A stretch of DNA of 64,000 nt from Selenobaculum gibii. GTDB taxonomy: Bacteria > Bacillota > Negativicutes > ICN-92133. The stretch spans positions 2,147,501-2,211,500 of the forward strand of contig NZ_CP120678.1 in NCBI RefSeq assembly GCF_030273445.1. Reading direction: 5' to 3'. Each line of letters opens with the position of its first letter. Position 1 is the first letter of the stretch. Below, piece by piece: positions 17,791 to 35,012 of this stretch. Below the pieces are notes generated by a model. The model searched no databases, was not told the origin of the DNA, and was given only the letters and a program-made list of their open reading frames with translations. A program made the position numbers and the translations under genes.

Positions 17791-17808
17791 TTTTTTCCAT
17801 ATAAGAAA

Positions 17809-17836: not shown

Positions 17837-17876
17837 TGATTCTATATCCAAAACGATTTCCCAAATCGCATTATTT

Positions 17877-17890
17877 CTGGTGGAGACGAC
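17877..17890. repeat. att repeat (ssrA 3' end copy)
   Basis: CTGGTGGAGACGA repeats the 3' end of ssrA. The preceding bases, CGATTTCCCAAATCGCAT, copy the ssrA terminator as well. This marks the boundary between the serine-recombinase element and the next unit. Confidence 0.8.
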
Positions 17891-18086
17891 TCTCAACCGA
17901 CCTTAATGCGATTCTAGAAAGCAAAAAATTGAAATTACTTCATGATACTTTATCATATCACTCTTTTCTCTATTTTAGAATATATACATAACACATATCT
18001 ATGTTTTGTATTATTTAAGATACTCCAATTTATCATTATATCTAGTTAATTATTATATTTTAAACTCTTTATATAATAATTTTAGA

Positions 18087-20443: not shown

Positions 20444-21755
20444 AACGTTTCTCCCCCCACCAAACTGGTTGTTGTGATTTCTCATCATCAGCAACTAAAT
20501 GTATAAACCCCTTTTTATTCGCTTCATTGGGCATATTTTTATCTAAAAATTTTTCAACATGATTAAAATTTAATATACTTAATGCATTATGTACACTTTG
20601 CAAAAATTCATCGCTATTTTTATGACCTTCATACACTTGAATTAATAAATCTTTATATTTTAAATAACAGAAATGTAACATATGTGTTATTATTTTTTCA
20701 TTATTTTTAATTCCTGATTTTTTTAGCCATCTAATATATTGCTCTGCTGTAAAAAAACAATCTTTACTATAATCAATTTTATTTTCTTTAATATTTTCAA
20801 GCCTTAATTTTTGACAAAACAAATTTTTTTCTAATTCTCGTTTTTTCTCCAAATTAGGTAATACTTCTATTAACTCATCCATAAAATCATCAACTAAATC
20901 CTGTTTTTTAGTATCATTTTTTAATTCAGAAATTTCAAGTAAAATTTTTCTTATTTCTTCTACATGCGAAGAATCGTGACTATCATAAGATATCGTTTCC
21001 AGATTAAAATTACTTTTCAAAAAAACTATTTGTTCCGCAGTAGGGCGATCCAATACAATATAATGTTTTACTTTAAAAGCTTCATAATTCTCCTTGATAA
21101 TCTTTTGTATAAATATATCATTAAAAGAAAAACCAATAAATAAAAATGTCTTAGTATTTGTAAATGTAGAAAATAAGATTTTATATTTATCATCATTATA
21201 TAATTCCATATATTTATCATGACTAAGAACGATGCTACTAGAGTCTGAAATATGACCATGCAGATGAAATATTCTTTTTTCACTCTTTGAATTCACAATG
21301 TTTTGTATATTAGAATTAATATCTTTTAAATTAATTGGAATAAAATTAGACATCAAAAATTCGCTTAAAATATGATCATAATTAGTCGTGATATACGAAG
21401 TAAAACTCATTTTAGATAAATCTGAATAATTATGGTTAGATTTATCAACATCAAGATTAATACTTGCATTTACAGTACGTGCAACATATTGTTGAATATC
21501 CTCGTCTGACCGATTTAAATAGTTCTTAATTAACCTTACAGCTTCCCAATAATCATATTTTTCCAGATTATGTTCCACCATCTCTAATAATGGCAATTCG
21601 ATTTCTTTTATACCCATCTCTATTGCACAGTTTCTAATTAAATTCCCCCAATCTGGGACACTAAATGGTATGGATAATCCTGCTCCTATAAATGGAACTA
21701 AGTAACCATCCTCATATATATCTTTTAATTCATTTATAAAAGTTTTATTACTCAT
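20433..21755 (-). CDS. SIR2-domain effector of an ABC-3C system
   Basis: Residues 1-270 form a SIR2 domain: the NAD-binding LVPFIGAGLSIPFSVPDWG, SYITTNYDHIL, the catalytic His region IFHLHGHISD, and FLFIGFSFND. In phage defence such SIR2 domains hydrolyse NAD+ and starve the infected cell. Residues 280-440 are a helical C-terminal region that in ABC-3C effectors couples to the middle component. It is the first gene of the operon, followed by the middle component and the ATPase, a complete ABC-3C set as predicted by comparative genomics (Burroughs and Aravind). A GAGG-containing box lies about ten bases before the ATG. Confidence 0.82.
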   Translation of the reverse strand: MSNKTFINELKDIYEDGYLVPFIGAGLSIPFSVPDWGNLIRNCAIEMGIKEIELPLLEMVEHNLEKYDYWEAVRLIKNYLNRSDEDIQQYVARTVNASINLDVDKSNHNYSDLSKMSFTSYITTNYDHILSEFLMSNFIPINLKDINSNIQNIVNSKSEKRIFHLHGHISDSSSIVLSHDKYMELYNDDKYKILFSTFTNTKTFLFIGFSFNDIFIQKIIKENYEAFKVKHYIVLDRPTAEQIVFLKSNFNLETISYDSHDSSHVEEIRKILLEISELKNDTKKQDLVDDFMDELIEVLPNLEKKRELEKNLFCQKLRLENIKENKIDYSKDCFFTAEQYIRWLKKSGIKNNEKIITHMLHFCYLKYKDLLIQVYEGHKNSDEFLQSVHNALSILNFNHVEKFLDKNMPNEANKKGFIHLVADDEKSQQPVWWGEKRFDK

Positions 21756-21833
21756 ACTGCACTTTCCCTCTTTGTAACATTAATCGTATTACTTTCTCTA
21801 ATTTTAACATACATCATTTTATCTAACTTTATT

Positions 21834-21879
21834 TTTCTATATTTATACAAATAAACCCTTTATCCTATCAAAATATTTC
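21834..21879. repeat. Direct repeat at a cargo boundary, copy 2
   Basis: Partner of 17744-17790. Its right half is also one arm of the 22-bp inverted repeat at 21857-21908. Confidence 0.5.
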
Positions 21880-21908
21880 CGCAAAAAAATATTTTGATAG
21901 GATAAAGG
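21857..21908. terminator. Perfect 22-bp inverted repeat upstream of the ABC-3C operon
   Basis: CCTTTATCCTATCAAAATAT starts the left arm (21857-21878); its complement lies at 21887-21908 with an 8-base loop. It lies between serine recombinase 1 and the SIR2 gene, so it could stop readthrough into the defence operon. It could also be a boundary palindrome of the inserted cargo. Confidence 0.6.
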
Positions 21909-21985
21909 CTATATCAAAAATCTGCTTTCCCCGATAAAATTACACTTCACTTCCAATAATATTGCATTATCGGAATCTATAATAA

Positions 21986-22019
21986 AAGGCAGATACTCAA
22001 ATTCAAGAATATCTGCCTT
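21986..22019 (-). terminator. Terminator of serine recombinase 1
   Basis: AAGGCAGATA pairs with TATCTGCCTT; on the minus strand the stem is followed by TTTATTATAG. It begins 12 bases after the recombinase stop codon. A close copy lies beside the recombinase remnant at about 13992-14026. Confidence 0.8.
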
Positions 22020-22030
22020 CATATTATAAG

Positions 22031-23560
22031 TTATGCACATTTATTTTCTTCATTAAATATAATCTCAATATCTTCATTGTCCACTATCACCTTTTTGATG
22101 TATGAAGATAAGTAATTTTTTACCTTTTGGGTATTGTTAGCTTTTACATATTCGTTTAATCCTTGAATTGCTTCTTGTACCTGTTCTTGGGTAAATCTTC
22201 TTTGTTGCATTTCTTCCATTACTTGTATTTTCTCTTTAAATTCAGCTTGTTCTGCGGATAGTTCTTCGATTTGATTTGTTATTCTACTTATCATGCTATC
22301 AGATTTTGAATATTTTAAACTTCTGTAAAGGTTTTCTTCTTGCTGTTTTTGCTCTTTTAAGGCTTCCTTATACCTTTTGATTTTATGAAGCATGTCTTCA
22401 TCATTCTCGATTATGTGATTTATCAATTCAGTAATTTGCTCAATATTTGCATTTTGAAAGATTGACTTATGTAATAGCTCTAAAACAAAATCTTCAAGTA
22501 TAAACCGATTAACTGGTTTTACATCACAGGCTTTTACTTTTTTATTTGGACATCTGTAATGAGAACGTATTATAGATTTATTCTTAGAATCACGGTTCAC
22601 ATCTCCATGTAACATAGCTCCACAATTTCTGCATTGAATCATTCCCCTTAATATGTAATTATTTTTACTTTCTCTAGCTTTCCTTGATTTTAATTTTATA
22701 CGTTCTTGAACTCTAGCAAACATTTCTTTATCTATTATGGCAGGATGATTATCATGCACCCTTATAATGTCTTCATCATCTTTATATTTATGGGAATTGT
22801 TTTTTCCATTTGGATCTCTTGGATATGCTTTATTATAGCAGTATGTACCTTGATATTTTTCGTTTATTAATATGTCATGGATAGAATTTTTCTTGAATTT
22901 TAATTTTCTCTTTGTAAGATATCCCATTTCGTTAAGCCTTGCTGCTATATTTCCGTAACCATATCCATCATCATACATTTCAAATATTTTTCTAACAGCT
23001 TCCGCTTCTGTAACGTCAATTATTAATTTTTGTTCTTCATCTAACATATAGCCAAGTGGCGGAACTCCTCCACAATGCAAACCATCTCTAGCATTACTTT
23101 TTAAACCGTCAAAGCTTCTATCTCCAATCACCCCACGTTCGTATTCATTTACCGCATATTGTATATTTTTGTGAAATATTCCGGCTGTTGTTTCTGCCAT
23201 TTTTTCAGTTGCACTAATAAAACGTTTTTTATTTTCCAAAAGAATAGCTTCAAGAACTTTCATATCGTGAACATTACGACCTGCTCTATCGTAGCGATAA
23301 ACAATCAACGCATCAAAATCTAATAGATTATTTTTTATTTCATCTAACATTTTCAAATAATTTGTACGTTTTCCAGTTCCACCGCCACTTTTTGCTTCAT
23401 CTGCAAATGTTGCAACTATTTCATAACCATTCTTCTTACAGTATTCTCTGATTCCTTCGATTTGTATTTCTATACTTATTGGATTTTGATGATCTGATGA
23501 ATATCTTGCATATGCGATTACTTTTTTTATTGTTTCTGTCCTAGAAAAATATACAGCCAT
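22031..23560 (-). CDS. Large serine recombinase 1
   Basis: This site-specific integrase is of the resolvase/invertase superfamily. The N-terminal catalytic domain has the nucleophile Ser in YARYSSDHQ and the Arg-rich VYRYDRAGRN. A recombinase domain follows (GGVPPLGYMLDEEQ ... LINEKYQGTYCYN), then a zinc ribbon (CRNCGAML ... CPNKKVKACD) and a coiled coil at about 390-470. I chose ATG 23560 (509 residues) because AAGGAG lies 8 bases before it; a GTG at 23569 touches the box. Such enzymes integrate and excise elements between short att sites. The adjacent remnant at 14038 shows that a second element with the same enzyme once lay next door. Confidence 0.93.
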   Translation of the reverse strand: MAVYFSRTETIKKVIAYARYSSDHQNPISIEIQIEGIREYCKKNGYEIVATFADEAKSGGGTGKRTNYLKMLDEIKNNLLDFDALIVYRYDRAGRNVHDMKVLEAILLENKKRFISATEKMAETTAGIFHKNIQYAVNEYERGVIGDRSFDGLKSNARDGLHCGGVPPLGYMLDEEQKLIIDVTEAEAVRKIFEMYDDGYGYGNIAARLNEMGYLTKRKLKFKKNSIHDILINEKYQGTYCYNKAYPRDPNGKNNSHKYKDDEDIIRVHDNHPAIIDKEMFARVQERIKLKSRKARESKNNYILRGMIQCRNCGAMLHGDVNRDSKNKSIIRSHYRCPNKKVKACDVKPVNRFILEDFVLELLHKSIFQNANIEQITELINHIIENDEDMLHKIKRYKEALKEQKQQEENLYRSLKYSKSDSMISRITNQIEELSAEQAEFKEKIQVMEEMQQRRFTQEQVQEAIQGLNEYVKANNTQKVKNYLSSYIKKVIVDNEDIEIIFNEENKCA

Positions 23561-23758
23561 ATCTCTCACTCCTTGTGTTAAGTAGGTGGAGATATCTCAC
23601 AAAAGCATACCTCCACACGTACTATCAACTAAATTTTCTTTGCAGTATTTCAACTAATAAGGCTAAAAGAACGGTATTTAAAGAATTTTCGAGTTTATTG
23701 TCGAAATTTTCAAAATTATCTTTCGTTAACTTTATACGTCTAAGTTTAATATTATACA

Positions 23759-24184
23759 TCAGTCATCCTCCCTTTCCATATCAACAATCTGAATTATTGC
23801 GATAGGAGATTCGCCTGTTGTATCAACCTTAACACATGGGAAAGAAATACTTGTTCGATTACTATAATCCAAATTAAATGTCTCTGCCAACGATCTGACA
23901 AGCGGTTCGCTATATACTATCGGTCTTTTTTCTGAAACATTATAAGAAATTTTATTACTCAAATTTTCTCCTATTAGAAGCAATCCTCGTTTAGGAATAA
24001 CCATAAATTGTACTTTATCTGGGGAATTTAATTCAGTGTATAAATTTTCCGTAAAAGAAACTCTGTTTCCATTTCGGTTCTTCACTATAGAAATGCCAAG
24101 TAAACCTCTCCCTTTACTTGATTGAACTTTTGATACTTCTACTTCCATAGCTTCCTTACGTAAATTTTCTAAATTTAATTCCAT
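23759..24184 (-). CDS. Unknown protein, paralogue of the neighbouring 125-residue protein
   Basis: The 141-residue product has an N-terminal helix (MELNLENLRKEAMEVEVSKV) and a strand-rich body. The body aligns with the upstream neighbour: SPDKVQFMVIPKRGLLLIGENL here, SPKRIQLVVDNDNRYILVGK there, then a helix (LVRSLAETFNL versus VVKAILDAMHL). The pair therefore looks like an ancient duplication. An AAGGAG box precedes the ATG. It is the third gene of a DUF927-125aa-141aa operon, so it may work with replication or regulation of the element. No family is recognised. Confidence 0.65.
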   Translation of the reverse strand: MELNLENLRKEAMEVEVSKVQSSKGRGLLGISIVKNRNGNRVSFTENLYTELNSPDKVQFMVIPKRGLLLIGENLSNKISYNVSEKRPIVYSEPLVRSLAETFNLDYSNRTSISFPCVKVDTTGESPIAIIQIVDMEREDD

Positions 24185-24201
24185 AATAATAACACTCCTT
24201 A

Positions 24202-24579
24202 TTAATAATTAATTTTTATAGCTGAACAGTTTTTACCTTTTACTGGTACTACCTCAAAATCTGAAAAAGTTTTTATTTTTTCTTTGTTTTCTAAATGCAT
24301 AGCATCAAGAATTGCCTTAACCACACCATGTCCAAAAACAGCAACTTCATTTGCACAAATAATATCAAAATATGAAGAAGTCCCTAAATTTTTGCCTACT
24401 AAAATGTAGCGATTATCGTTATCTACAACGAGTTGAATTCGTTTTGGACTACCAATCGCCTTATATGCCAAGCGGGGTAAAACAATCTTAGAAATAATAT
24501 TATTCCTATATAGCTTGGCAGTCTCTACTTGTTTTTCTTTTTCTGGTTCGGGTTCTATTTCTATATCAACAATCCCCAT
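24202..24579 (-). CDS. Unknown protein of the DUF927 operon, paralogue of the 141-residue protein
   Basis: The 125-residue product has an acidic, proline-rich N-terminus (VDIEIEPEPEKEKQVET) and a strand-rich domain shared with its downstream neighbour. AGGAGG lies 9 bases before its ATG, within the last codons of the DUF927 gene, and the start is one base after that gene's stop, so translation is coupled. The shared fold has the look of a small DNA-binding or assembly domain, but I cannot name it. Confidence 0.65.
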   Translation of the reverse strand: MGIVDIEIEPEPEKEKQVETAKLYRNNIISKIVLPRLAYKAIGSPKRIQLVVDNDNRYILVGKNLGTSSYFDIICANEVAVFGHGVVKAILDAMHLENKEKIKTFSDFEVVPVKGKNCSAIKINY

Positions 24580-24580
24580 T

Positions 24581-26275
24581 TCAAGAAGCCTCCTCGCAAA
24601 AAAGATTATCTTCAGCTGCTACCGTTTTCTTGTCTTCATAGGTTGGATAGGATGAATCCTCTTTGGCAAACTGAATAATATACACTCTCGATCTAATACC
24701 ATTAATCGTACGTTTTGTGTCTAATCTACCTGGGTCAGAACCAATCAAAATTCCTTTCTCACGCCAAGCTTGCAATATGGTTTGAATTTTTGGAAATGTG
24801 CTTCTTTCAAAGACCTCCTGAAATTTTTTAGTTAATATGAGAACCTCAAGAACATTTTCCTTATTGTCTATTAATATTTTCCCAAAACTATTCACCCCAA
24901 AGCTACCATTAAAATGTGTATTTTTAGCATTGCGATACTGAGGAAGAATCTCATGATGAAACTGACTTTTCTTCTCGCTAATCCAGCTTTTAAAAAATTC
25001 TAACGCTTCGTCAGCTACATCAAAAGACCTTGTAATACTATCATGAATGGATATAATTTCCTTATCTATTGATTCTTCATTGACTTTTAAGCCAATGTTT
25101 GTATTCATAATAGATGCCGTTACTGATATTACAGCTAGTTTTTCTATAATACGGGATGATAGAGAGTTTCTTTTTCTAAGCTTATCTGATAAAGCATTGC
25201 GTCTAGTATGATATAATTGGATCATTTCGTCATCTTTTAAGCATATTAGAAAGTTTGCAAAAGGAATTACAGCATGCCCATAGTTTTGGGAAATCCCATC
25301 TACTATACGATTGGAATGTTCCGCAGAAGCAGTGAATTTCCTTTTTAATTCAAATAAACGACATCTTAAACCACCATGTTGTGCTGAGTTTTCAAGCATA
25401 GAGACTTCTGAGGTCATTACAACAGTCGTTCTCCATTCTCTTTGGTTACGTGCAATTAGATCTTTAGATAGTCTATTTTTTTCTGTTCCACCTTCAATCC
25501 TATAAATGAGATCCTCCCATCCAGTTCGATTATTCATCATCGCTTCGTCAAGCAGGACAGGAAATCCGCATTTATCACACATCAAGTTTATCAATGCATT
25601 ATGCGTAGCATCAAACGTATTTACTATCCCGTTTCTACCAATGCTTGGATTTCCGTATATACTAGCCATCAACTTTAAAGCAGTAGTCTTCCCCAATGAA
25701 GTATCGTTGTAAAAAAGAAATAACAAGTTACTAAACCCAATTAAAGAGGAAAGTCTCCCTACTACGATAGCCGAATACCCAATAGTTAAGGCAAATTCTA
25801 AAGCAGGATATCCTATAACCTCGTGATTTATGATATTTAACCACATTTCGTAAGTACCCCTTGGCAACAATTTTTCATTCTCAACATAAGTTGATGTTAC
25901 TTCCCCACCTATAGTTTTTGATGCTAGATACAATAAATGATCGTTGACCTTGTGAAAGCCAAGCTTATGGTGTTGATAATATTTAGGAGCACTTTCTTCT
26001 AAGTAGAACAAGTACTGTATTAACGCATTCGTATCCCAAGAATTTATACTAAGCCCTTTTCTCAGCAGTTCATTAATTATATCGATTTTTGTAAACCTGC
26101 CTCGTTCCATCGCAAATTCAACTTCTTCATTTTTTAAAATAAGTTTCAAATAAATTACTTTGTCATTAGAATGCAAATCACTAAGAACGTGTGAAATTTG
26201 CACCTCCTGACACACTTCTAGTTCTACTCCTTTTTCATTTAATTTGTACAGTTTACCGTTATGTAGATACAACAT
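24581..26275 (-). CDS. DUF927-domain replication-type ATPase
   Basis: This 564-residue protein belongs to the DUF927 family found in phages and integrative elements, usually beside primases or in place of a replicative helicase. Visible landmarks are YSAIVVGRLSSLIGFSNLLF, the P-loop-like DTSLGKTTALKLMASIYG, the acidic GFPVLLDEAMM (Walker B), and TTVVMTSEVSML followed by an Arg-rich sensor region. I chose ATG 26275, seven bases after GGGGGC; a TTG at 26296 precedes that box. It heads a three-gene operon divergent from the regulator at 26573. It probably unwinds or loads DNA during element replication. Confidence 0.75.
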   Translation of the reverse strand: MLYLHNGKLYKLNEKGVELEVCQEVQISHVLSDLHSNDKVIYLKLILKNEEVEFAMERGRFTKIDIINELLRKGLSINSWDTNALIQYLFYLEESAPKYYQHHKLGFHKVNDHLLYLASKTIGGEVTSTYVENEKLLPRGTYEMWLNIINHEVIGYPALEFALTIGYSAIVVGRLSSLIGFSNLLFLFYNDTSLGKTTALKLMASIYGNPSIGRNGIVNTFDATHNALINLMCDKCGFPVLLDEAMMNNRTGWEDLIYRIEGGTEKNRLSKDLIARNQREWRTTVVMTSEVSMLENSAQHGGLRCRLFELKRKFTASAEHSNRIVDGISQNYGHAVIPFANFLICLKDDEMIQLYHTRRNALSDKLRKRNSLSSRIIEKLAVISVTASIMNTNIGLKVNEESIDKEIISIHDSITRSFDVADEALEFFKSWISEKKSQFHHEILPQYRNAKNTHFNGSFGVNSFGKILIDNKENVLEVLILTKKFQEVFERSTFPKIQTILQAWREKGILIGSDPGRLDTKRTINGIRSRVYIIQFAKEDSSYPTYEDKKTVAAEDNLFCEEAS

Positions 26276-26572
26276 TAAGATAGCCCCCTTAAACAAATTA
26301 GCTTTATTGCTTACTGATATAATAAGCTAAGAATCACTTTTTGTTAAATAACATTATTGGAAACTTTATATCTTTTTATCATTTTTTATTGACAATTTCT
26401 TTATTAAATTTGTATAATATTCATGTTTTAGGAATGTATAATCATTTTCTCTTAGGACTTCCTTTACCAAACGACTTTCCCGATTTAACCTATGGAAAAC
26501 CATTACATTACCCTATTTTGAGCAATTATTCATGAAACTTTTTAACTTTCAACTATTTTTTTAGGAGGATTT
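26276..26572. promoter_or_regulatory. Divergent control region of the replication operon and its regulator
   Basis: This region lies between the leftward DUF927 operon and the rightward winged-helix gene. TTGACA (26389-26394) and TATAAT (26412-26417) are 17 bases apart, a consensus-like promoter on the plus strand for the regulator. The short plus-strand frame here has no ribosome binding site and is not called. Confidence 0.55.
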
Positions 26573-27097
26573 ATGAAGAAGTCTAATAACCCAATTGACA
26601 TATTGGATGAACAAAAATTTTCTTTAGCTAAGTTAAGCGAAACAAAAAAAAATATTTTATTCTTTATTCATGAACAGAATATGTTAGGAAATAAGGTAAA
26701 AAGTCAAAAGGAAATAGCTAGAATTTTAAACCTTAGTGCCTCTACAATAAGCAAATACTTGAAGGATTTGGAACAAGGTGGTTTTATTTCTTCTGCTGGC
26801 AAAAATCATACTAAAGAATATTTTATAAGTTCATCTTACAAATCAAATTCTTCACGCGACAAGCTAGAGAGGTTAAATTTACTATTTGGAAGTACACCCC
26901 ATGTGTCATTTGATGTTAAAACCATATTTATAAAAACCGCACCACATCAGGCTCAAGTATACGCTAATTTATTAAAAGAAATTTTTCCAAAAGAAATTTT
27001 ATCTACTTTTCACAATGACGAAGGTATTTTAGTTATCCTTTATGAACATACCTATGATATAGTGAAGGATTTTTTAAGTAAGCAATTTATTTCGTAA
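26573..27097 (+). CDS. Winged-helix regulator with ArgR-like C-terminal domain
   Basis: The 174-residue product has a winged helix at residues 20-75 (SQKEIARILNLSASTISKYL, then KDLEQGGFI). The C-terminal part (IFIKTAPHQAQVYANLLKEI ... ILSTFHNDEGILVIL) follows the pattern of the ArgR oligomerisation domain (TxPGxAQ ... GTIAGDDTI), with the arginine-binding DD replaced by DE. It may sense another ligand or simply oligomerise. AGGAGG lies just before the ATG. Divergent placement suggests it controls the DUF927 operon and itself. The HTH is confident; the ArgR relation is by eye. Confidence 0.7.
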   Translation: MKKSNNPIDILDEQKFSLAKLSETKKNILFFIHEQNMLGNKVKSQKEIARILNLSASTISKYLKDLEQGGFISSAGKNHTKEYFISSSYKSNSSRDKLERLNLLFGSTPHVSFDVKTIFIKTAPHQAQVYANLLKEIFPKEILSTFHNDEGILVILYEHTYDIVKDFLSKQFIS

Positions 27098-27125
27098 AAA
27101 AAATAGTCAGTTTATATAAATACAT

Positions 27126-27210
27126 GCCCCATCTGCCCCATTTACATATTCAGATTCCCCATTCACTTCTCTTATCAGGTAAGGGTTTCCCCAATCGCCC
27201 CATCTGCCCC
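27126..27210. repeat. Pair of 14-bp direct repeats (candidate origin iterons)
   Basis: GCCCCATCTGCCCC occurs at 27126-27139 and 27197-27210, 71 bp apart start to start. Related CCCC tracts lie between them (TTCCCCATT, TTCCCCAA). They are strikingly GC-rich for this AT-rich setting and lie in the element's replication region, so a replication or processing origin is plausible. Confidence 0.5.
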
Positions 27211-27248
27211 GTTATTTTCAGAAAAAAAATATTATAATATGTAGTATT

Positions 27249-27301
27249 AAAAATGCACTCCAAACACAGGTTTATCTTACCTGCCATTTGAAGTGCATTT
27301 T
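27249..27301. terminator. Bidirectional terminator between the regulator and serine recombinase 2
   Basis: AAAATGCACTCCAAA pairs with TTTGAAGTGCATTTT, with an inner AGGT/ACCT stem. It serves the converging regulator gene and recombinase 2. Confidence 0.75.
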
Positions 27302-27304
27302 CTT

Positions 27305-28879
27305 TTAACTACTCTTTTCCATTTTTACTGTGGAACTATATTCTTCATAGATAATTTGCTTTTTTATTTCAAGTGAAGTATCTAGTTCATCTATAATTCC
27401 TAAGCCTGTTTTTATTATGAAACAGACTTTATAGGGATAAATTACAACTTCTTCTATTACTTCTTGGATTAACGTTTTAAATTCTACGCTATTTTGCTCT
27501 AACATTTCAAATTGATTTTGTTTTTCTGTGAAGTCACTTTCTTCATATTCAGGATAGACAGCTTGTTTATTAAGTTTACAGAAGATTTCTTGTTTGCTTA
27601 TTTCTAACGTTTCTATCCGCTTTATTATCTCATCCGTTATCACGCCTTTTTCTATGAATTTTGTTAAATTTTCTATTTTACTCATCACTTCTTCATATTG
27701 AAGCTTTAATTCTTTATGAATATTTTCAGCGTTATCTTTTTGGGATTTCACATATTGGTTAATTTTACAGATATTTCTTTTACATGCTTGTTTATTAAAA
27801 ATATACCTTTTTAGCAATTTGACAATGTAATCGTCAAGGTAATCTTTGTTTACTTCCTTGTTTTTACATTCAATCCGATGGGTTTGGCATCTATAGGTTA
27901 CGTATCGGCTTTTGTTTCTGCCTGAATATCTCAAATCACCGACCATTTTTCTTCCACAAATCCCACATCTTATTTTTGTGCTTAGTAAGTAAAATTCTTT
28001 ACTGTCATATGCTCCACTAGATAGTTTATTTTTTATCATGCGTTCATTTGCTTTTGTAAAATCTTTTTTATCTATGATTTTAGGACAACCACCTTCTACT
28101 CGAATTACTTTATCATCTTTTTTATACAGGTGATTATTTCTTCTTTCTAAAGCATCTTTCGATTCTACTTTATTGTAAATGAATACTCCTGTATATTTTT
28201 CATTGATTAAAATATCGTATAGGGAATTTCGTTTGAAAATTTCTCCTCGCTTGTTTTTGTAACCTAGCCTATTAAGTTCAGCTATGATTTTTCCATATCC
28301 GTATCCTTGATTGTATAGTTTAAAAATCAGTTTTACTGCTTTTGCTTCTTGCTCATTGATTACGAGTTTTTTATTTTCGTCTAAATCATAGCCAATTGGT
28401 GGTTTCCCTCCTGTATGTTTACATTGCAGTGCATTTTCTGTCATGCCTTTCATTACTTCTCTGGCTAGGTTTTTAGAGTAGTATTCACTCATTCCTTCGA
28501 GTAAGGCTTCTAACATTACGGATTCTGGACTGTCGTCAATGTTTTCTAGTACACTGTAAACTTTGACTTTGTTCTTTTTGAGCTTGGTTTTGTAGATGGC
28601 GGAGTCGTAGCGATTTCTGGCAAATCGGTCGAGTTTGTGCACGAGGACGATGTCAAATTTGCCTTCGTTGCTTTCTTCTATCATCTGTTGGAAGGCTGGT
28701 CTTTTGTCTGTGGTGGCAGATTTTGCTTCGTCCATATAGATTTCGACAATTTGGTATCGCTTGGTTTGGCAGTATTTTTTCATGGCTCTGATTTGTGCAT
28801 CTATACTTTCACTTCTTTGATTGTCTGAGGAAAATCTTGCATATAAGGCGACTCTTTTAATTTCAATCATTTTCATCAC
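27305..28879 (-). CDS. Large serine recombinase 2
   Basis: The roughly 522-residue product has the catalytic Ser in YARFSSDNQR, VHKLDRFARN, a recombinase domain (GGKPPIGYDLDENK ... LINEKYTGVFIYNK), a zinc ribbon (CGICGRKM ... CQTHRIECKN) and a coiled coil at about 380-440. It is clearly related to recombinase 1 but diverged. The start region overlaps the end of the DUF1643 gene by up to 17 bases; GTG 28879 or ATG 28876 are possible and neither has a good ribosome binding site, so coupling to DUF1643 is likely. Two such enzymes in one element may mean a nested insertion, or separate jobs in integration and resolution. Confidence 0.92.
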   Translation of the reverse strand: MMKMIEIKRVALYARFSSDNQRSESIDAQIRAMKKYCQTKRYQIVEIYMDEAKSATTDKRPAFQQMIEESNEGKFDIVLVHKLDRFARNRYDSAIYKTKLKKNKVKVYSVLENIDDSPESVMLEALLEGMSEYYSKNLAREVMKGMTENALQCKHTGGKPPIGYDLDENKKLVINEQEAKAVKLIFKLYNQGYGYGKIIAELNRLGYKNKRGEIFKRNSLYDILINEKYTGVFIYNKVESKDALERRNNHLYKKDDKVIRVEGGCPKIIDKKDFTKANERMIKNKLSSGAYDSKEFYLLSTKIRCGICGRKMVGDLRYSGRNKSRYVTYRCQTHRIECKNKEVNKDYLDDYIVKLLKRYIFNKQACKRNICKINQYVKSQKDNAENIHKELKLQYEEVMSKIENLTKFIEKGVITDEIIKRIETLEISKQEIFCKLNKQAVYPEYEESDFTEKQNQFEMLEQNSVEFKTLIQEVIEEVVIYPYKVCFIIKTGLGIIDELDTSLEIKKQIIYEEYSSTVKMEKSS

Positions 28880-29531
28880 ATTTATTTATTTCAGGATGAT
28901 TTTCACTTACTTGAAGATTTTCTACTTCTTTATCAATTGGTAAGTCAGATGCATTTTGAGGGTTATGTTTTTCAACTGGTTCGGGTGGATTCATTAGTTT
29001 TTGTAATTTTTCCATTGTGATTTTTTCTAATATCCATTTATTCCGTATTTGTGGTGTTAATGGATGAAGTCCTCTTCTTCCGTGTTCATCTTTAATAATT
29101 CTAATTTTTTCTGCATAGGGTGCAAGAGCAACTAAGATTTCCTGCTGACGTTCTCTGACTCTTTTAGTATGCTGTCCGATCTGTCCCCATGCTAAGATAA
29201 TATAGTCTACTTTATCAGCAGATTTTTTCATATACTCGTCATTTTCATTGACCAGAAGTTCTTCATCGTCTTGAAAGCGAAAAGATATTTTATTGGTAAT
29301 GCGTGTATACATATTAAAAATATCTACCGAACCGACATTTAATTTGTCTAAGTTATTAATTACGCACATCGTTGTTAAGTCAGTTTGAACATTTTGTATT
29401 TCACTTGGATTTATCATGATAACCATAGCGGATTCTTTTGTTTTATCCCATTCCCTTTTAAGTAAGATTCTGTGTTCCTTATCTTCTGAATAGATACTTT
29501 CACATTTTATGATTGTTTTTTCAATTTGCAT
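28863..29531 (-). CDS. DUF1643 protein
   Basis: The product is 222 residues. The first 160 match DUF1643: an RILLKREWD-type opening, MVIMINPSEIQNVQTDLTTM, a VGSVDIFNMYTR strand and DYIILAWGQIG, ending near GLHPLTP. The family is common in phages and mobile elements, and its biochemical role is unknown. The last 50 residues are low-complexity and acidic. GGAGG precedes the ATG, and the gene leads into recombinase 2 with overlap, forming an operon. Confidence 0.8.
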   Translation of the reverse strand: MQIEKTIIKCESIYSEDKEHRILLKREWDKTKESAMVIMINPSEIQNVQTDLTTMCVINNLDKLNVGSVDIFNMYTRITNKISFRFQDDEELLVNENDEYMKKSADKVDYIILAWGQIGQHTKRVRERQQEILVALAPYAEKIRIIKDEHGRRGLHPLTPQIRNKWILEKITMEKLQKLMNPPEPVEKHNPQNASDLPIDKEVENLQVSENHPEINKCDEND

Positions 29532-29556
29532 GTTTTTATCCTCCTAAATAATAGAA

Positions 29557-29592
29557 AAAGACCAATATAGATTTTTGTCTATATTGGTCTTT
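29557..29592 (-). terminator. Terminator after the small membrane protein
   Basis: A 15-bp stem, AAAGACCAATATAGA with its complement, is followed on the minus strand by TTC and a T-rich tail. It ends the XRE-lipoprotein-membrane protein transcript. Confidence 0.8.
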
Positions 29593-29606
29593 CGTTTTGT
29601 ATTTTG

Positions 29607-29789
29607 TTATTTAAAAAATCCTATTACCAAAAGTATTATCCCTAGAACTACAACTAACCAGATAGGAAAAATCCACGATAATAGCCATACAAATAAGACA
29701 GTTACCCCTATTAGTAGAACATATGGCAAAAAGTAAATAGCCAGTCCTGCTCCAACTATTATCAGCAATGCAGTAAAGATTATATCCAT
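29607..29789 (-). CDS. Small membrane protein, 60 residues
   Basis: The protein consists of two or three hydrophobic segments with almost no soluble part (MDIIFTALLIIVGAGLAIYF, then VLLIGVTVLFVWLLSWIF and VVVLGIILLVIGFF). Its ATG follows the lipoprotein stop by one base, so the two are co-translated and may act together in the membrane. The family is unknown; the composition resembles small envelope or holin-like proteins. Confidence 0.65.
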   Translation of the reverse strand: MDIIFTALLIIVGAGLAIYFLPYVLLIGVTVLFVWLLSWIFPIWLVVVLGIILLVIGFFK

Positions 29790-29790
29790 A

Positions 29791-31005
29791 TTATTTTTCT
29801 TGTTCTAAAATGATATTTTTAATTTCTTGCGAATTTCTGTCTACTTTAAATTTTAATATACATTTTAATCCGTTTTCATAGGTTTTGTTATTCCTATACG
29901 TATATACATCTAAGCTGTCTTTTGATTCTTTCTCATAACCATCACCATATTTACGGAAAATGCTACTAACATCCATTCCCACATTTACGTCTCTTGGAGT
30001 TCCCTTATACAATTCTTTATTTAATCTTATTGAGTAAACTATTCCTTCTTTGTTTAAATAAACCATACACTTTCTATCTGTATCTTTATCATCAATAGTA
30101 TCGTTTTTTATATATTTATATTCATCACTTACATAACCTGAATTCTTAGTTGAAGATCCTATACGTATACCAGCTAAAGAAAAATCTAATTCATCTAAAG
30201 GTATAACTTCTTCTTGCTCGTCTTTCAAATTTATCTTTTGGGCTAGTTCTAATATATATTTATACTCTTCTGAATCATCCTTTTTAAAGTCTTCTTTTAT
30301 TTCAACAACAATTTCATTTAATTCATCTTCAGAAAAATTATCTCTGTATATTTTTACTATTTTTTTCATAGGATATTCATACTCAGCCCTACGAGAAAGT
30401 TCAAATATACTTTCATGTCGTCGATACTCTCTTATATTTAATACCTCCTTCTTTAGTTTTTCAATTTTATTATTTATTTCAGATAATTCTTTTTGCAAAT
30501 CATCTAATTTTTGTAAATCATTTTTTTCTTTTGCTTCATCTATTTTTATTTCCGTTATAATTTCGCTTGACCGTATCAACGCCTTTAACTCATTATATTT
30601 TTCCTTCTCATATTCAAGAGACTGAAATGCTAATTTACAGTTCTTTAACATTTCAATGTATTCTTTCTGAGCCGAACTAATTTTATCCTGCTCATCTTTT
30701 TTTAATGAACTAGGCATTTTCATATTATCTAACTCTTTTAATCTATCATCAATTTTCTTAATAATTTTTTCATTAAATAATTTAATTTGATCTAAATCTC
30801 TCTTATCCATATCGCTTGAAATCGCAAAACTCCCTTTACCTATTACATTCACATACTCATAAGATTGCTTTATACATTGTAAATCTTTTGAGTAAGCTTT
30901 AATTACCATTTTGAGCTCATCTTTTTTTTCATCACCACAACCACCTAACAACAATGCAATCAGAGGAATTAATAATAAGTACGCATATCTTTTTACATTC
31001 TTCAT
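29791..31005 (-). CDS. Coiled-coil lipoprotein
   Basis: The 404-residue product begins with a lipoprotein signal peptide (KRYAYLLLIPLIALLLGGC, lipidated Cys23). A long coiled coil covers about residues 30-200 (for example LDDLQKELSEINNKIEKLKK). A C-terminal domain at about 270-404 (SLAGIRIGSSTKN ... GIVYSIRLNKELY) resembles small strand-rich domains of surface lipoproteins. It would be anchored outside the cytoplasmic membrane. It lies in a three-gene operon with an XRE regulator and a membrane peptide, possibly an entry-exclusion or envelope-modifying function of the element; that is inference. Confidence 0.65.
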   Translation of the reverse strand: MKNVKRYAYLLLIPLIALLLGGCGDEKKDELKMVIKAYSKDLQCIKQSYEYVNVIGKGSFAISSDMDKRDLDQIKLFNEKIIKKIDDRLKELDNMKMPSSLKKDEQDKISSAQKEYIEMLKNCKLAFQSLEYEKEKYNELKALIRSSEIITEIKIDEAKEKNDLQKLDDLQKELSEINNKIEKLKKEVLNIREYRRHESIFELSRRAEYEYPMKKIVKIYRDNFSEDELNEIVVEIKEDFKKDDSEEYKYILELAQKINLKDEQEEVIPLDELDFSLAGIRIGSSTKNSGYVSDEYKYIKNDTIDDKDTDRKCMVYLNKEGIVYSIRLNKELYKGTPRDVNVGMDVSSIFRKYGDGYEKESKDSLDVYTYRNNKTYENGLKCILKFKVDRNSQEIKNIILEQEK

Positions 31006-31027
31006 CTTATCACCTTTTATTCATCTT

Positions 31028-31240
31028 TTATTTTAGCTCCGATACGGGTTTGATTAAGTCTACTGCATCTATGCCCAAAGTATCGGATAGGACAAATAGT
31101 ATATATAAGGAAAATGCTCTTGCTGTTTTCCCACTTTCAATTTTCTTTACGTAGCTTACACTTATGCCTGCTTTTTCTGCTAATTGCTCTTGATTTAATC
31201 CTCTTAGACTACGATAGAATGCTATTTTTCTCCCTATCAT
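31028..31240 (-). CDS. XRE-family regulator
   Basis: The 70-residue protein is essentially one helix-turn-helix domain (LRGLNQEQLAEKAGISVSYV, then KKIESGKTA). I chose ATG 31240, seven bases after AAAGG, because XRE proteins normally begin close to this point; an ATG at 31270 has GGGAG touching it. It lies 22 bases before the lipoprotein gene, as its operon's first gene. Two 10-bp direct repeats upstream are likely operators. Confidence 0.85.
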   Translation of the reverse strand: MIGRKIAFYRSLRGLNQEQLAEKAGISVSYVKKIESGKTARAFSLYILFVLSDTLGIDAVDLIKPVSELK

Positions 31241-31331
31241 TCTATACCTTTCAGCGTAAATTTTTCTCATCTCCCGTCTTTACATTACATATATAATTAT
31301 GGCATAAAGTAGCAGATTCTTAGGGACAATC

Positions 31332-31362
31332 ATAGTGTACTATAGAATATTTATAGTGTACT
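31332..31362. promoter_or_regulatory. Probable XRE operator: direct repeats 21 bp apart
   Basis: ATAGTGTACT occurs at 31332-31341 and 31353-31362, two helical turns apart. The pair lies between the XRE gene and the DUF960 gene, where a small repressor would bind. Confidence 0.55.
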
Positions 31363-31389
31363 TTTAACCATTTACTTACATTTGCTATT

Positions 31390-31689
31390 TTAATATTCAT
31401 CAGCTAATAGCATTGTGGCGTTTGCTCCATCATCTATTACGAAAATTTTAGTTTCAACAGCTTTATCTACATCAATAAGAAACGTCCTTTGATACTTAGG
31501 CTCTTCTTGTCTATGTATGATTTTCTGTCTAATTCCATCTTTTGTATTCATTTTGCTTAAACAGAATACTTGCAGATGATCTTTTTTAGAAACTTTCATT
31601 GCATTTATCGCCTGCCATATTTTAATCTGAGTCAGAATTGGTAATGTTGAACCTATTCCTTTTGTCAGATATCTCTTATTGTCAAACAT
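31390..31689 (-). CDS. DUF960 protein
   Basis: The 99-residue product matches DUF960: MFDNKRYLTKGIGSTLPI, QKIIHRQEEPKYQRTF, and the C-terminal IFVIDDGANATMLLADEY. The family is frequent in conjugative and integrative elements of Firmicutes, next to RadC and similar accessory genes, with unknown biochemical role. GGAGG precedes the ATG. It lies 30 bases after the micropeptide gene. Confidence 0.85.
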   Translation of the reverse strand: MFDNKRYLTKGIGSTLPILTQIKIWQAINAMKVSKKDHLQVFCLSKMNTKDGIRQKIIHRQEEPKYQRTFLIDVDKAVETKIFVIDDGANATMLLADEY

Positions 31690-31719
31690 TGTTTTCCTCC
31701 ATCCATCTTGTAAATTTTA

Positions 31720-31782
31720 TTAGTCTTCTTGATTGTTAACGATGATTTGTAATACTAGGATTGCAATTTGTAGCCAAGGCAT
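31720..31782 (-). CDS. MPWLQ micropeptide (20 residues)
   Basis: The peptide begins MPWLQIAILVLQIIVN and ends in acidic NQED. It is a single amphipathic to hydrophobic helix. Its ribosome binding site (GGGGGAGGGG, about 8 bases upstream) is far stronger than those of its neighbours. A second copy (14093-14149) keeps the first residues, the hydrophobic pattern and the purine-rich site while its neighbouring genes are ruined, which argues that it is a real gene. It follows the terminator of the 118-residue gene, so it may be expressed by readthrough. Membrane-active or type I toxin-like action is possible but unproven. Confidence 0.6.
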   Translation of the reverse strand: MPWLQIAILVLQIIVNNQED

Positions 31783-31810
31783 TTTCTTTCCCCTCCCCCT
31801 AGTAAAAAAT

Positions 31811-31840
31811 CCGCTTAATCGCATATTTACGATTAAGTGG
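31811..31840 (-). terminator. Terminator between the 118-residue gene and the micropeptide
   Basis: CCGCTTAATCG pairs with CGATTAAGTGG and is followed on the minus strand by GATTTTTT. It starts right after the stop of the 118-residue gene. It is conserved, with compensating changes, in the decayed copy at 14178-14212. Confidence 0.75.
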
Positions 31841-31841
31841 A

Positions 31842-32198
31842 TTAGTTATTGTTTATTTGATTTTTCCAAGGTGTTAGTTCCAACATTTCTTTTGTCATGA
31901 TGATTACTATTGAAAAATCACTATTTAGTAGGATTAGTGTTTCAACATAGGTTTGCTTATCTTTATTTTTTATCATTTCTACATATTCTGGAATTGCACT
32001 TTCTACGTATAGATGATATTCTTCCAGTTTTTTTAAATCTGCAATATCTTCAAGAAGTACAACAAAACCGCCCTCATCATGATAAATAGTCCTATCATAG
32101 GATTCTTCAAAAATTTTTATTGTTTTAGTAATTCTATCCTTTACTTCTATTGGCAATGATAATGCAGATATTTGATTTTGGTTTGTAATTTTTATCAT
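31842..32198 (-). CDS. Unknown 118-residue protein of the RadC operon
   Basis: The small mixed alpha/beta product (MIKITNQNQISALSLPIEVK ... GGFVVLLEDIADLKKL ... SDFSIVIIMTKEMLELTPW) has AAAGGA nine bases before its ATG. It follows radC by 23 bases in the same direction. The same pair, in ruined form, exists at 14178-16616, so the association is stable. I recognise it as a typical accessory protein of mobile elements but know no function. Confidence 0.7.
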   Translation of the reverse strand: MIKITNQNQISALSLPIEVKDRITKTIKIFEESYDRTIYHDEGGFVVLLEDIADLKKLEEYHLYVESAIPEYVEMIKNKDKQTYVETLILLNSDFSIVIIMTKEMLELTPWKNQINNN

Positions 32199-32221
32199 AT
32201 TCTATATTCCTTTCTAGATTG

Positions 32222-32821
32222 CTAAAATAGTCCTTCTTCCTTGAAACTAAAATACTGCCCTTTGCCTATGATTACATGGTCAATTACTGGTATTTCTAAT
32301 AGTTTACCAACTTCTATGATTTTTTTTGTAAAGATTTTGTCTTCATCGCTTGGCTTTGGTATGCCTGTCGGATGGTTGTGGACGAGTGCAACGTGAGCTG
32401 CCCGAATTCTGACGGCTGGGCAGAAAATTTCCCGCGGTGTGACGAGGGTTGCGGTTAGGCTTCCCCTTGATATTTTACTTTGCGTTAGAATGGCATTTTT
32501 GGCGTTTAGATGGACAACACGGAATTCTTCGATTTCGAGCGTTTGCATTTCTTTGCAAATTACGAAAATGTCTTTTGGCTTTTTGATTGCTGTTGGTGGC
32601 GGATTGAGTTTGCTGTGCAATCTTTTGGCGAGTTCTGTTATGTAGCAAAGTTGTTTTGCTCGGCTGACTCCGATGCTTGGAAAAGCTTCGAGTTCTTTTA
32701 CCGTGCTGTTGAAAAGAGCCTGCTGGACTCCACCGTAAATAGCAATCATTTCTTTTACTGCACTAATAGGAATTATACTTTCTAGTAATTGTTCATCTGT
32801 TAGGTAATCAAAATTAGGCAT
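32222..32821 (-). CDS. radC: RadC-family JAMM/MPN protein
   Basis: This is a 199-residue RadC: a helix-hairpin-helix at about residues 33-62 (LEAFPSIGVSRAKQLCYI) and an MPN domain at about 75-199 with the metal-binding HNHPTGIPKPSDED. The chromosomal family is about 220-230 residues, so this is a short mobile-element type. The old role in recombinational repair is doubted; element-borne copies may act in DNA processing or counter-defence. Its ribosome binding site (AAGGAGG) lies inside a perfect 11-bp hairpin, suggesting translational control. Confidence 0.9.
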   Translation of the reverse strand: MPNFDYLTDEQLLESIIPISAVKEMIAIYGGVQQALFNSTVKELEAFPSIGVSRAKQLCYITELAKRLHSKLNPPPTAIKKPKDIFVICKEMQTLEIEEFRVVHLNAKNAILTQSKISRGSLTATLVTPREIFCPAVRIRAAHVALVHNHPTGIPKPSDEDKIFTKKIIEVGKLLEIPVIDHVIIGKGQYFSFKEEGLF

Positions 32822-32829
32822 AAAAAAAC

Positions 32830-32863
32830 CTCCTTGAAATTTACTTTATAGTATTTCAAGGAG
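32830..32863 (-). promoter_or_regulatory. radC leader hairpin that would hide the ribosome binding site
   Basis: CTCCTTGAAAT (32830-32840) and ATTTCAAGGAG (32853-32863) pair perfectly. In the minus-strand transcript the 3' arm contains AAGGAGG, the radC ribosome binding site. The hairpin is kept at 16625-16658 before the ruined radC with a changed loop. Confidence 0.65.
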
Positions 32864-32935
32864 ATAATATATGTTTGATTTATGTAGTTGTTACAATGGT
32901 TAATTTCCGTATAACATTTCCCCCTAATAGTACAA

Positions 32936-32970
32936 AAGGGCATTAGAACTCCAAAAGTCCTAATGCCCTT
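32936..32970 (-). terminator. Hairpin at the right end of the serine-recombinase element
   Basis: AAGGGCATTAG pairs with CTAATGCCCTT. It is followed by TTCTATAT and an ACAATATT/AATATTGT hairpin just before the att core at 33009. Confidence 0.65.
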
Positions 32971-33008
32971 ATTCTATATAGAACAATATTTACAATATTG
33001 TGTCTTTG

Positions 33009-33023
33009 CTGGTGGAGACGACC
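33009..33023. repeat. att repeat
   Basis: CTGGTGGAGACGACC. The next 20 bases keep the spacing of ssrA and again reach CTGTCC, so this is a diverged ssrA 3' end rather than a bare core. Confidence 0.8.
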
Positions 33024-33081
33024 GTCGTGGGAATCCTGTCCAAAAATTTATTATCCCATCTACGCTTTATTTATAATTTTT

Positions 33082-33477
33082 TCATTTAGATTTCCTATGG
33101 CTTCTTATCCATTCTGCTATTTTCTCAACAAAAATAGTTTTTTCTGCGATACCTACTGCTAGCTCTTCTATTTCTAACTGCGTATATTCTATATCATACT
33201 CATTTAATAGTAAAAATACAAGCATACAGTGCAAACCCGTTCTTTTATTTCCATCAACAAACGGATGGTTATTTATAACCCCAAATGATAATCTTGCGGC
33301 TTTATCCTCAATATTTTGATATAAATCTTCACCAAACATTGATTGAAACGGATTGCTTATTGCCGATTCTAATAATTTTATATCTCTAATTCCCTCTAAG
33401 TTCCGATATTCCTTGGTTAAATCACTATGAAATTCTATCGCATCACTAAGTAGTATTTCTATCGTTTGTTGTGACAT
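33082..33477 (-). CDS. doc: Doc-type Fic toxin, copy 1
   Basis: The 131-residue death-on-curing protein has the motif HPFVDGNKR (residues 71-79), the Fic/Doc active site. Doc proteins phosphorylate elongation factor Tu and stop translation when the unstable antitoxin is lost. The length fits the family (P1 Doc has 126). Its ATG follows the antitoxin stop by two bases, so it is translated after the antitoxin. It would penalise loss of the unit. An identical gene lies at 33907. Confidence 0.9.
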   Translation of the reverse strand: MSQQTIEILLSDAIEFHSDLTKEYRNLEGIRDIKLLESAISNPFQSMFGEDLYQNIEDKAARLSFGVINNHPFVDGNKRTGLHCMLVFLLLNEYDIEYTQLEIEELAVGIAEKTIFVEKIAEWIRSHRKSK

Positions 33478-33479
33478 TT

Positions 33480-33605
33480 TTATCTTTTCGCAAGATTAGA
33501 ATAAGCTTGTTTATTTTTTTCCATTAGCATCTGCGAAATCTTTCTAACCTTTTCCTTTCTTTCTTCTTCTTTCATCGAAATTTCAAATTTATTTTTCTTT
33601 TCCAT
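33480..33605 (-). CDS. Antitoxin of the Doc pair, copy 1
   Basis: I chose ATG 33605, nine bases after AAAGGAGAG, giving a 41-residue basic, helical protein (MEKKNKFEISMKEEERKEKV ... AYSNLAKR). A longer frame from 33749 would read through the control hairpin and lacks such a site. The length fits only the toxin-neutralising tail of a Phd-type antitoxin; no DNA-binding domain is present, so autoregulation through this protein alone is doubtful. Confidence 0.7.
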   Translation of the reverse strand: MEKKNKFEISMKEEERKEKVRKISQMLMEKNKQAYSNLAKR

Positions 33606-33648
33606 AATATTTTTCTCTCCTTTCAAAAAATAGAGCTTCATTTTACAA

Positions 33649-33735
33649 ATAGAGGGGTAAAGAACACATATTTTACTGTCCTTTACCCCTTTATTATTTA
33701 CCATCGGACGCGGTATCCGCATCCGTCCACGTCCA
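33649..33735 (-). promoter_or_regulatory. Control region of the Doc pair, copy 1
   Basis: An 11-bp inverted repeat, GAGGGGTAAAG with CTTTACCCCTT (33650-33692), and a GC-rich near-palindrome, GGACGCGGTATCCGCATCC (from 33703), lie upstream of the antitoxin. The GC-rich block stands out from its AT-rich surroundings. A second copy lies 825 bases to the right. Confidence 0.45.
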
Positions 33736-33833
33736 CTGGTAATTTCCATTTGATTTTAAAAACTTCACAATATATTGATTTTACTAAGTTTTATAATTCT
33801 ATATTCAAAACGATTTCCCAAATCGCATGATTA

Positions 33834-33848
33834 CTGGTGGAGACGACC
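33834..33848. repeat. att repeat
   Basis: CTGGTGGAGACGACC, preceded by a full copy of the ssrA terminator, marks the border of the two 825-bp units. Confidence 0.85.
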
Positions 33849-33906
33849 GTCGTGGGAATCCTGTCCAAAAATTTATTATCCCATCTACGCTTTATTTATA
33901 ATTTTT

Positions 33907-34302
33907 TCATTTAGATTTCCTATGGCTTCTTATCCATTCTGCTATTTTCTCAACAAAAATAGTTTTTTCTGCGATACCTACTGCTAGCTCTTCTATTTCT
34001 AACTGCGTATATTCTATATCATACTCATTTAATAGTAAAAATACAAGCATACAGTGCAAACCCGTTCTTTTATTTCCATCAACAAACGGATGGTTATTTA
34101 TAACCCCAAATGATAATCTTGCGGCTTTATCCTCAATATTTTGATATAAATCTTCACCAAACATTGATTGAAACGGATTGCTTATTGCCGATTCTAATAA
34201 TTTTATATCTCTAATTCCCTCTAAGTTCCGATATTCCTTGGTTAAATCACTATGAAATTCTATCGCATCACTAAGTAGTATTTCTATCGTTTGTTGTGAC
34301 AT
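33907..34302 (-). CDS. doc: Doc-type Fic toxin, copy 2
   Basis: The protein is identical to the copy at 33082, including HPFVDGNKR. Two identical toxins with two identical antitoxins keep the dosage balanced. Together they also provide 825 bp of homology for easy expansion or collapse of the array. Confidence 0.9.
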   Translation of the reverse strand: MSQQTIEILLSDAIEFHSDLTKEYRNLEGIRDIKLLESAISNPFQSMFGEDLYQNIEDKAARLSFGVINNHPFVDGNKRTGLHCMLVFLLLNEYDIEYTQLEIEELAVGIAEKTIFVEKIAEWIRSHRKSK

Positions 34303-34304
34303 TT

Positions 34305-34430
34305 TTATCTTTTCGCAAGATTAGAATAAGCTTGTTTATTTTTTTCCATTAGCATCTGCGAAATCTTTCTAACCTTTTCCTTTCTTTCTTCTTCTTTCAT
34401 CGAAATTTCAAATTTATTTTTCTTTTCCAT
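34305..34430 (-). CDS. Antitoxin of the Doc pair, copy 2
   Basis: Identical to the copy at 33480-33605, with the same start choice (ATG 34430 after AAAGGAGAG). Confidence 0.7.
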   Translation of the reverse strand: MEKKNKFEISMKEEERKEKVRKISQMLMEKNKQAYSNLAKR

Positions 34431-34630
34431 AATATTTTTCTCTCCTTTCAAAAAATAGAGCTTCATTTTACAAATAGAGGGGTAAAGAACACATATTTTA
34501 CTGTCCTTTACCCCTTTATTATTTACCATCGGACGCGGTATCCGCATCCGTCCACGTCCACTGGTAATTTCCATTTGATTTTAAAAACTTCACAATATAT
34601 TGATTTTACTAAGTTTTATAATTCTATATT

Positions 34631-34651
34631 CAAAACGATTTCCCAAATCGC
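34631..34651 (-). terminator. ssrA terminator
   Basis: GCGATTT-GGG-AAATCG followed by TTTTG on the minus strand, nine bases after the encoded CCA end of tmRNA. Copies lie before the att repeats at 33834 and 17877. Confidence 0.8.
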
Positions 34652-34659
34652 ATGATTAC

Positions 34660-35012
34660 TGGTGGAGACGAGGAGAATCGAACTCCTGTCCGAAAGTATT
34701 GTTTCATAGGCTTCTCCGAGTGCATTTTGTGTTTTAAATTTAAAACCGCCGACGCTCACAAACTGGCTTCATTGGTTCGATCTCGATAAAATTTCCCAGT
34801 CAAGCCTCCGAGAATTGGCTCTCAGGTATCCCACTATTTGCCCCTGTTCAGTCCCGCGGGATTAGACTGAGAGAGGTTAGCATTAAGCTGCTAAAGCGTA
34901 ATCTTCGTTAGCTTTTATATTTAATATAAAAGGTTCACCTTACTAACGGGTTGATGACCCCCCGACTCGCTACCTATGCACCAACTACCCCCGTCGAAAC
35001 CATTACGTCCCC
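34660..35012 (-). ncRNA. ssrA: tmRNA (ssrA)
   Basis: This 353-base tmRNA starts GGGGACGTAATGGTTTCGAC and ends with a tRNA-like T arm and encoded CCACCA. The tag reading frame (34883-34912) reads ANEDYALAA then TAA; with the charging Ala the tag is AANEDYALAA, ending in the protease signal ALAA. tmRNA rescues stalled ribosomes with SmpB, encoded at 36543. Its 3' end is the insertion point of the whole island and is intact, as expected when integration restores the gene. Confidence 0.97.

Follow-up and report, generated by a model that had tools for sequence, protein, structure and literature searches.

An exactly duplicated 825-bp Doc toxin-antitoxin unit at the ssrA end of Selenobaculum gibii, a probable recombinase-free cassette beside an SCC-like element

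Staphylococcal cassette chromosomes (SCC), known for methicillin resistance in staphylococci, typically combine recombinases with Cch, DUF1643 and DUF960 genes, and to our knowledge the way in which their recombinase-free partners move is still unsettled. The Cch protein has been linked to DUF927 in SCC (PMC7581432). A comparable arrangement at a different target is found in Dehalococcoides, where genomic islands specific to ssrA are associated with the CcrB-family serine recombinase DsiB and lie in tandem at that gene (McMurdie et al. 2011, PMC3146451). An integration module is absent from 15 of the 31 Dehalococcoides islands, which were proposed to be cis-mobilisable elements, and no strain holds the same island in duplicate (PMC3146451). 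The locus considered here lies in a window of 64,000 nucleotides from Selenobaculum gibii (contig NZ_CP120678.1), a member of the class Negativicutes, and positions given below are those of the window unless stated otherwise.

Two units of 825 bp each, cassette C (33009-33833) and cassette D (33834-34658), stand head to tail and are 100% identical, and with the adjoining 13-bp core the exact repeat extends to 838 bp (33009-33846 and 33834-34671). This letter-for-letter identity bears out the exact tandem duplication reported in a preliminary description of this DNA. Both units are interior to a single 2.68-Mb contig (2180509-2182158), away from the contig ends. Each closes with CTGGTGGAGACGA, the 13-bp ssrA 3' end, which is made up of the tmRNA 3' CCA end plus one base (the preceding C); the ssrA gene itself, located with ARAGORN, is intact (34660-35012, minus strand) and encodes the tag ANEDYALAA. 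The same core marks the distal end of a larger element (att0, 17877-17889), the junction of that element with cassette C (att1, 33009-33021), the boundary between the two cassettes (att2, 33834-33846) and the true ssrA 3' end with its preceding C (att3, 34659-34671). Its 12-mer form thus has four mismatch-free copies in the 64-kb window, starting at 17878, 33010, 33835 and 34660, against a chance expectation of 0.08 with up to one mismatch allowed. The whole genome holds five copies, the fifth of which (C1:2331373, within a 32-bp stretch 97% like the ssrA end) is probably a tRNA end.

Toward ssrA the order is relic A, att0, element B, att1, cassette C, att2, cassette D and att3. Each cassette comprises a core, a right arm, a Doc/antitoxin pair and the left arm of the next core, the last of these consisting of TTCTATAT and the palindrome CGATTTcccAAATCG (33796-33833 in C, repeated at 34621-34658 in D) and being 94% like the sequence to the left of att0 (17839-17890). 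Since unit sequence flanks att2 on both sides, att2 corresponds to the attP junction expected of a circularised unit. Promoter-like sites were no more frequent in the 825-bp unit than in shuffled sequence, and a search of the unit for an ssrA terminator found none. Dyad symmetry around the core was considered as proof of serine-recombinase half sites and set aside, being weak and inconsistent.

Between att0 and att1 lies element B (17877-33008, 15.1 kb), whose genes named below are all on the minus strand. These include two CcrB-like large serine recombinases, LSR1 (22031-23569) and LSR2 (27305-28879), the latter with its nearest kin linked to ssrA, and a Cch-like protein carrying DUF927 and the HTH_56 'Cch helix turn helix' domain (24581-26296). 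They are accompanied by a DUF960 protein (31390-31689), a RadC-like JAB-domain protein that recurs beside the recombinase (32222-32821), and two proteins that recur in ssrA elements, one with DUF1643 (28863-29531) and one of 118 aa (31842-32198). The recombinases score as CcrB-like with E values of 9e-50 and 4e-50, which fall below the NCBIfam equivalog cut-offs. As defence cargo the element carries a Lamassu system of LmuB, LmuC and an LmuA of the SIR2 type (18087-21755). By its gene content and ends, element B is an SCC-like element at ssrA, and with the fourth core at 17877 cassettes C and D belong to the same composite island. The preliminary description contained neither this core 15 kb away nor the two serine recombinases encoded in the intervening DNA, and had proposed a minimal mobile or stabilising unit. 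That proposal stands insofar as the unit has no integrase inside and att on both sides, and cassettes lacking a recombinase are a common feature of ssrA loci in the class, but the unit is not self-sufficient, sitting instead in a composite island whose SCC-like element supplies two large serine recombinases.

Beyond att0, the region 13990-17876 (relic A) holds an MCP gene, an HNH nuclease gene and fragments that match element B at 82-91% identity, namely in the LSR1 end, the 118-aa gene and RadC; these fragments are the remains of an older, decayed relative of that element. A RadC fragment at 14252-14309 continues into a degenerate copy of the core, CTGGTGGAGACAC, which may be the joint of an old recombination at a pseudo-att site inside radC. 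Further left, over L005 12815-19276 and positions 1-13168 of the window, come three successive genes, at least two of them tyrosine recombinase-like (Tn554-like by eye); the two in the window matched no Pfam family. Together with some 17 kb of cargo these three genes appear to interrupt the spore photoproduct lyase gene, the C-terminal part of which remains at 13168-13908. The tyrosine recombinases were rejected as movers of the unit because they appear to be part of this separate element, and the lyase gene was dismissed as a conserved ssrA neighbour as it had no match in other ssrA regions.

The gene content of the unit is a Doc gene and a small ORF two bases upstream, all on the minus strand, in agreement with the earlier statement that each copy contains only a Doc/antitoxin pair and one ssrA-end repeat. 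Doc (33082-33477 and 33907-34302) is a protein of 131 aa with an intact Fic/Doc motif, HPFVDGNKRT, which conforms to HxFx(D/N)GNKR, and it carries the PF02661 and DOC_P1 signatures of the family, with profile matches to PF02661 (E 2e-18) and, above the cut-off, to TIGR01550 (E 8e-20). The small ORF (33480-33605 and 34305-34430, start codon picked by homology) encodes 41 aa, matches no family and lacks the N-terminal Phd/YefM DNA-binding domain. The Doc partner in related genomes is usually short too, with a common C-terminal tail of roughly S..LM.RN..AY..L..K that is present in the 41-aa protein, and the clostridial partner is a full Phd-type antitoxin bearing the same tail. On these two grounds the 41-aa protein is most likely the antitoxin, cut down to its toxin-neutralising end. 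Across the Doc loci L203-L231 the class-typical partner is likewise an antitoxin of 40-60 aa with the conserved C-terminal tail and without a Phd domain. By analogy with its family, the pair may act as a stabiliser through addiction.

The preliminary description had held that Doc pairs found elsewhere without att repeats at their borders would count against it. Such pairs do occur: Doc relatives, with identities reaching about 52% at most, turned up in 77 other genomes, and an ssrA core was absent from all 29 loci examined. Five of these loci are near tRNA genes, with a tRNA-end repeat flanking the pair in none, and Doc pairs as att-bounded units elsewhere were rejected for these 29 loci. The result concerns the cargo, which it shows to be an ordinary toxin-antitoxin pair, and has no bearing on the cassette.

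Across the class, the closest LSR2 relatives adjoin ssrA in nine genomes (G065, G045, G037, G055, G043, G114, G146, G254 and G271), and in a tree LSR2 groups with the ssrA-linked sequences of G254 and G271 (support 99/99), most of the next neighbours also being ssrA-linked. More distant relatives adjoin genes for tRNA-Ala, tRNA-Leu and tRNA-Arg (L047, L048, L050, L051, L056, L057 and L065) and in two cases tmRNA, which suggests a wider group of serine recombinases targeting tRNA and tmRNA 3' ends. The element in G271 has its own exact core, TGGTGGAGATGG, at both ends (5791 and 17006) and the gene set LSR1-Cch-DUF960-DUF960-DUF1643-LSR2-RadC, the same set as element B. The repeated core always equals the host's own ssrA end (GACGA, GATGG, GATGA or GGCGA), which is the behaviour required of an attachment site and fits the reading of the repeats as att cores. 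A viral origin of the recombinase was discounted, viral hits being distant (at most 48%), and the left arm of the unit had no match among viral contigs.

Two further features were seen at ssrA loci. In G048 a partial second tmRNA (C1:2686389-2686560), which matches the first 173 bases of the query at 79% identity, is located downstream of ssrA at a distance of 4.6 kb, and a larger portion of the gene may thus be carried by an element at this site. At three loci (L109, 19015-19131; L118, 3014-3131; L119, 95-211) a second core-like sequence, GGTGGAGGCGA, lies about 117 bp from the ssrA-end core, the distance being 23 bp in other genomes. A terminator-like hairpin sits between the two, and GGTGGAGGCGA is possibly an accessory recombinase site or a replacement ssrA terminator.

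Att-bounded intervals stacked at ssrA are not peculiar to S. gibii. Twelve of about 58 ssrA 3' flanks have at least one exact copy of their own 12-bp core within 20 kb, where simple arithmetic gives an expectation of about 0.001 per genome for a random 12-mer. Stacked cores with no LSR1- or LSR2-type recombinase between them occur in G094, G082, G063, G012 and G086, 'recombinase-free' here meaning the absence of a tblastn match to either protein, so that the larger intervals may hold unrelated integrases. The array in G094 has five intervals (2781, 1235, 1567, 4728 and 2374 bp) and that in G082 two (1187 and 2405 bp), each array including one mismatched core. The arms have motifs in common, 'tccgtgacc..gcaaatcc' on the right and 'tccggattt' on the left. 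An EamA transporter, DUF2442 with nucleotidyltransferase and HNH genes, DUF5343/Hypoth_Ymh and others are among the genes carried. One cassette, with EamA as its single gene, occurs in the ssrA arrays of both G082 and G094, genomes of different families, with 93% DNA identity over 551 bp, and an 89%-identical EamA protein is encoded just past the ssrA array of G031; among 300 genomes searched, copies at least 89% identical were found in these three genomes only. Among 70 cassette ORFs encoding 100 aa or more, 57 run in the same direction as ssrA, which leading-strand bias could explain. The 825-bp unit itself, for which the preliminary description had advised a search of other ssrA loci, had no copy in 379 other genomes of the class, and its matches there were confined to Doc-coding similarity of about 70% at the DNA level and short chance stretches.

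We consider it likely that the 825-bp unit belongs to an ssrA-specific SCC-like family as a cassette without a recombinase of its own, on which a CcrB-type recombinase would act in trans, and that its second copy arose by recent re-integration. Such a cassette would consist of an attachment core formed by the final 12-13 bp of ssrA, element-type arms and one Doc/mini-antitoxin operon as sole cargo. A CcrB-type large serine recombinase, most likely LSR2 and perhaps together with LSR1, supplied by the adjacent 15-kb element B or by the now-decayed element A, would, acting in trans, excise it and integrate it at the ssrA end. LSR2 is favoured on account of its ssrA-linked kin; against this, the arms of element B differ in sequence from those of C and D, the right arm of C and D being unlike that of B, so that acceptance of the cassette by element B's recombinases is presumed. 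Every insertion would restore ssrA and add a new core, allowing head-to-tail stacking, and the second copy would most likely stem from an excised or replicated circle that recently re-integrated at an att site already present. The toxin-antitoxin pair would make losing the final copy costly and thereby stabilise the cassette, and once two copies were present RecA could alter their number further. Neither a free circle nor an unoccupied site nor a single-copy strain was observed, and since the unit is present in no other genome of the class that was searched, its own mobility is putative.

The duplication could also have come about in other ways. In the one-copy state att1 and att3 share just 13 bp, a length that makes a poor substrate for homologous recombination, and this favours site-specific re-integration over homologous exchange, but slippage or illegitimate recombination between these repeats could give an exact duplication too. 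The unit might accordingly be an immobile remnant of a larger ssrA element of the element A type that kept its ends and toxin-antitoxin pair and was copied by replication slippage or RecA-type unequal exchange. This reading, which we regard as unlikely, draws on the 94% identity between the unit's left arm and the arm beside the decayed element A, on the relic pieces of that older element next door, on the absence of the unit from the other genomes of the class and on the fact that the 13-bp core repeat would yield the same junction. Apart from the poor recombination substrate, it is opposed by the right arm of C and D, which is unlike that of element B, and by the stacks of non-identical cassettes at other ssrA loci, which are beyond the reach of slippage. 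That the chromosome has one unit and the second is an assembly artefact, as the 100% identity known from the assembly alone might suggest, is very improbable, given that both copies lie well inside the single contig of the genome, away from its ends, and that the repeat has its junctions exactly at the biological core and not at an arbitrary point.

As part of a class-wide ssrA counterpart of SCC, with a toxin-antitoxin pair as sole cargo and apparently just duplicated, the 825-bp unit offers a very small test object for the action of large serine recombinases in trans and is relevant to the question whether a mobile unit can persist on a toxin-antitoxin pair alone, while ssrA-specific recombinases are candidate tools for targeted integration. 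More speculatively, the ssrA 3' end may serve throughout the class as an integron-like platform on which recombinase-free cassettes of one or a few genes, mostly co-directional with ssrA and shared between families, are stacked and owe their movement to SCC-like serine recombinases acting in trans. The Doc cassette would then be the smallest selfish member, caught just after copying itself. We put this wider view forward tentatively, as a possibility rather than an expectation.

Among described systems, the Dehalococcoides ssrA islands resemble this locus in having a CcrB-family integrase, matched here to DsiB by description, and an ssrA-end repeat, although theirs is a 20-bp repeat with the insertion placed in the T-loop (PMC3146451). 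Their module of DsiB, DsiA, RecF, ParB, Mom and an RNA-polymerase-like protein differs from the LSR1, LSR2, Cch, DUF1643, DUF960 and RadC set of element B, and the cassette here, unlike theirs, is exactly duplicated, 825 bp long and furnished with a toxin-antitoxin pair only. SCC, SCCmec and pseudo-SCC of staphylococci share with the present island two CcrB-like recombinases, a Cch-type DUF927 helicase with the 'Cch' HTH, DUF1643 and DUF960, direct-repeat att sites at the 3' end of a conserved gene, and tandem composites with recombinase-free members. The recombinases here fall far below the CcrA/B/C cut-offs, however, cassettes C and D hold none, and the att core is a tRNA-like CCA end; as the target is ssrA and not rlmH, we call element B SCC-like and not SCC. 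The Enterococcus cassette chromosome ECC is likewise an SCC-like element with ccrAB outside staphylococci and has multiple attR in half of its elements, but lies at rlmH with the core TATCATAA (PMC6222049).

The CIMEs of ICE/IME accretion are att-bounded segments without a recombinase, stacked in tandem beside an element that has one; they are known mainly from ICEs with a tyrosine integrase and reach far greater sizes, whereas serine recombinases and 825 bp are concerned here. With att on both sides and no recombinase inside, the unit has the hallmarks of a CIME or pseudo-SCC, and its mobilisation in trans would complete the parallel. The cargo resembles Phd-Doc in its Doc/Fic toxin with an intact motif and in an antitoxin tail like the C-terminal tail of Phd-type partners, and departs from it in an antitoxin of about 41 aa without the N-terminal Phd domain of clostridial partners, a short form that is usual in the class. 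The open-access literature searched contained no ssrA-specific SCC-like family in this class. The kind of element is thus already known from the Dehalococcoides ssrA islands and SCC, and what is new, as far as searched, are the hosts, the gene module, the 825-bp size, the toxin-antitoxin-only cargo and the exact tandem copy.
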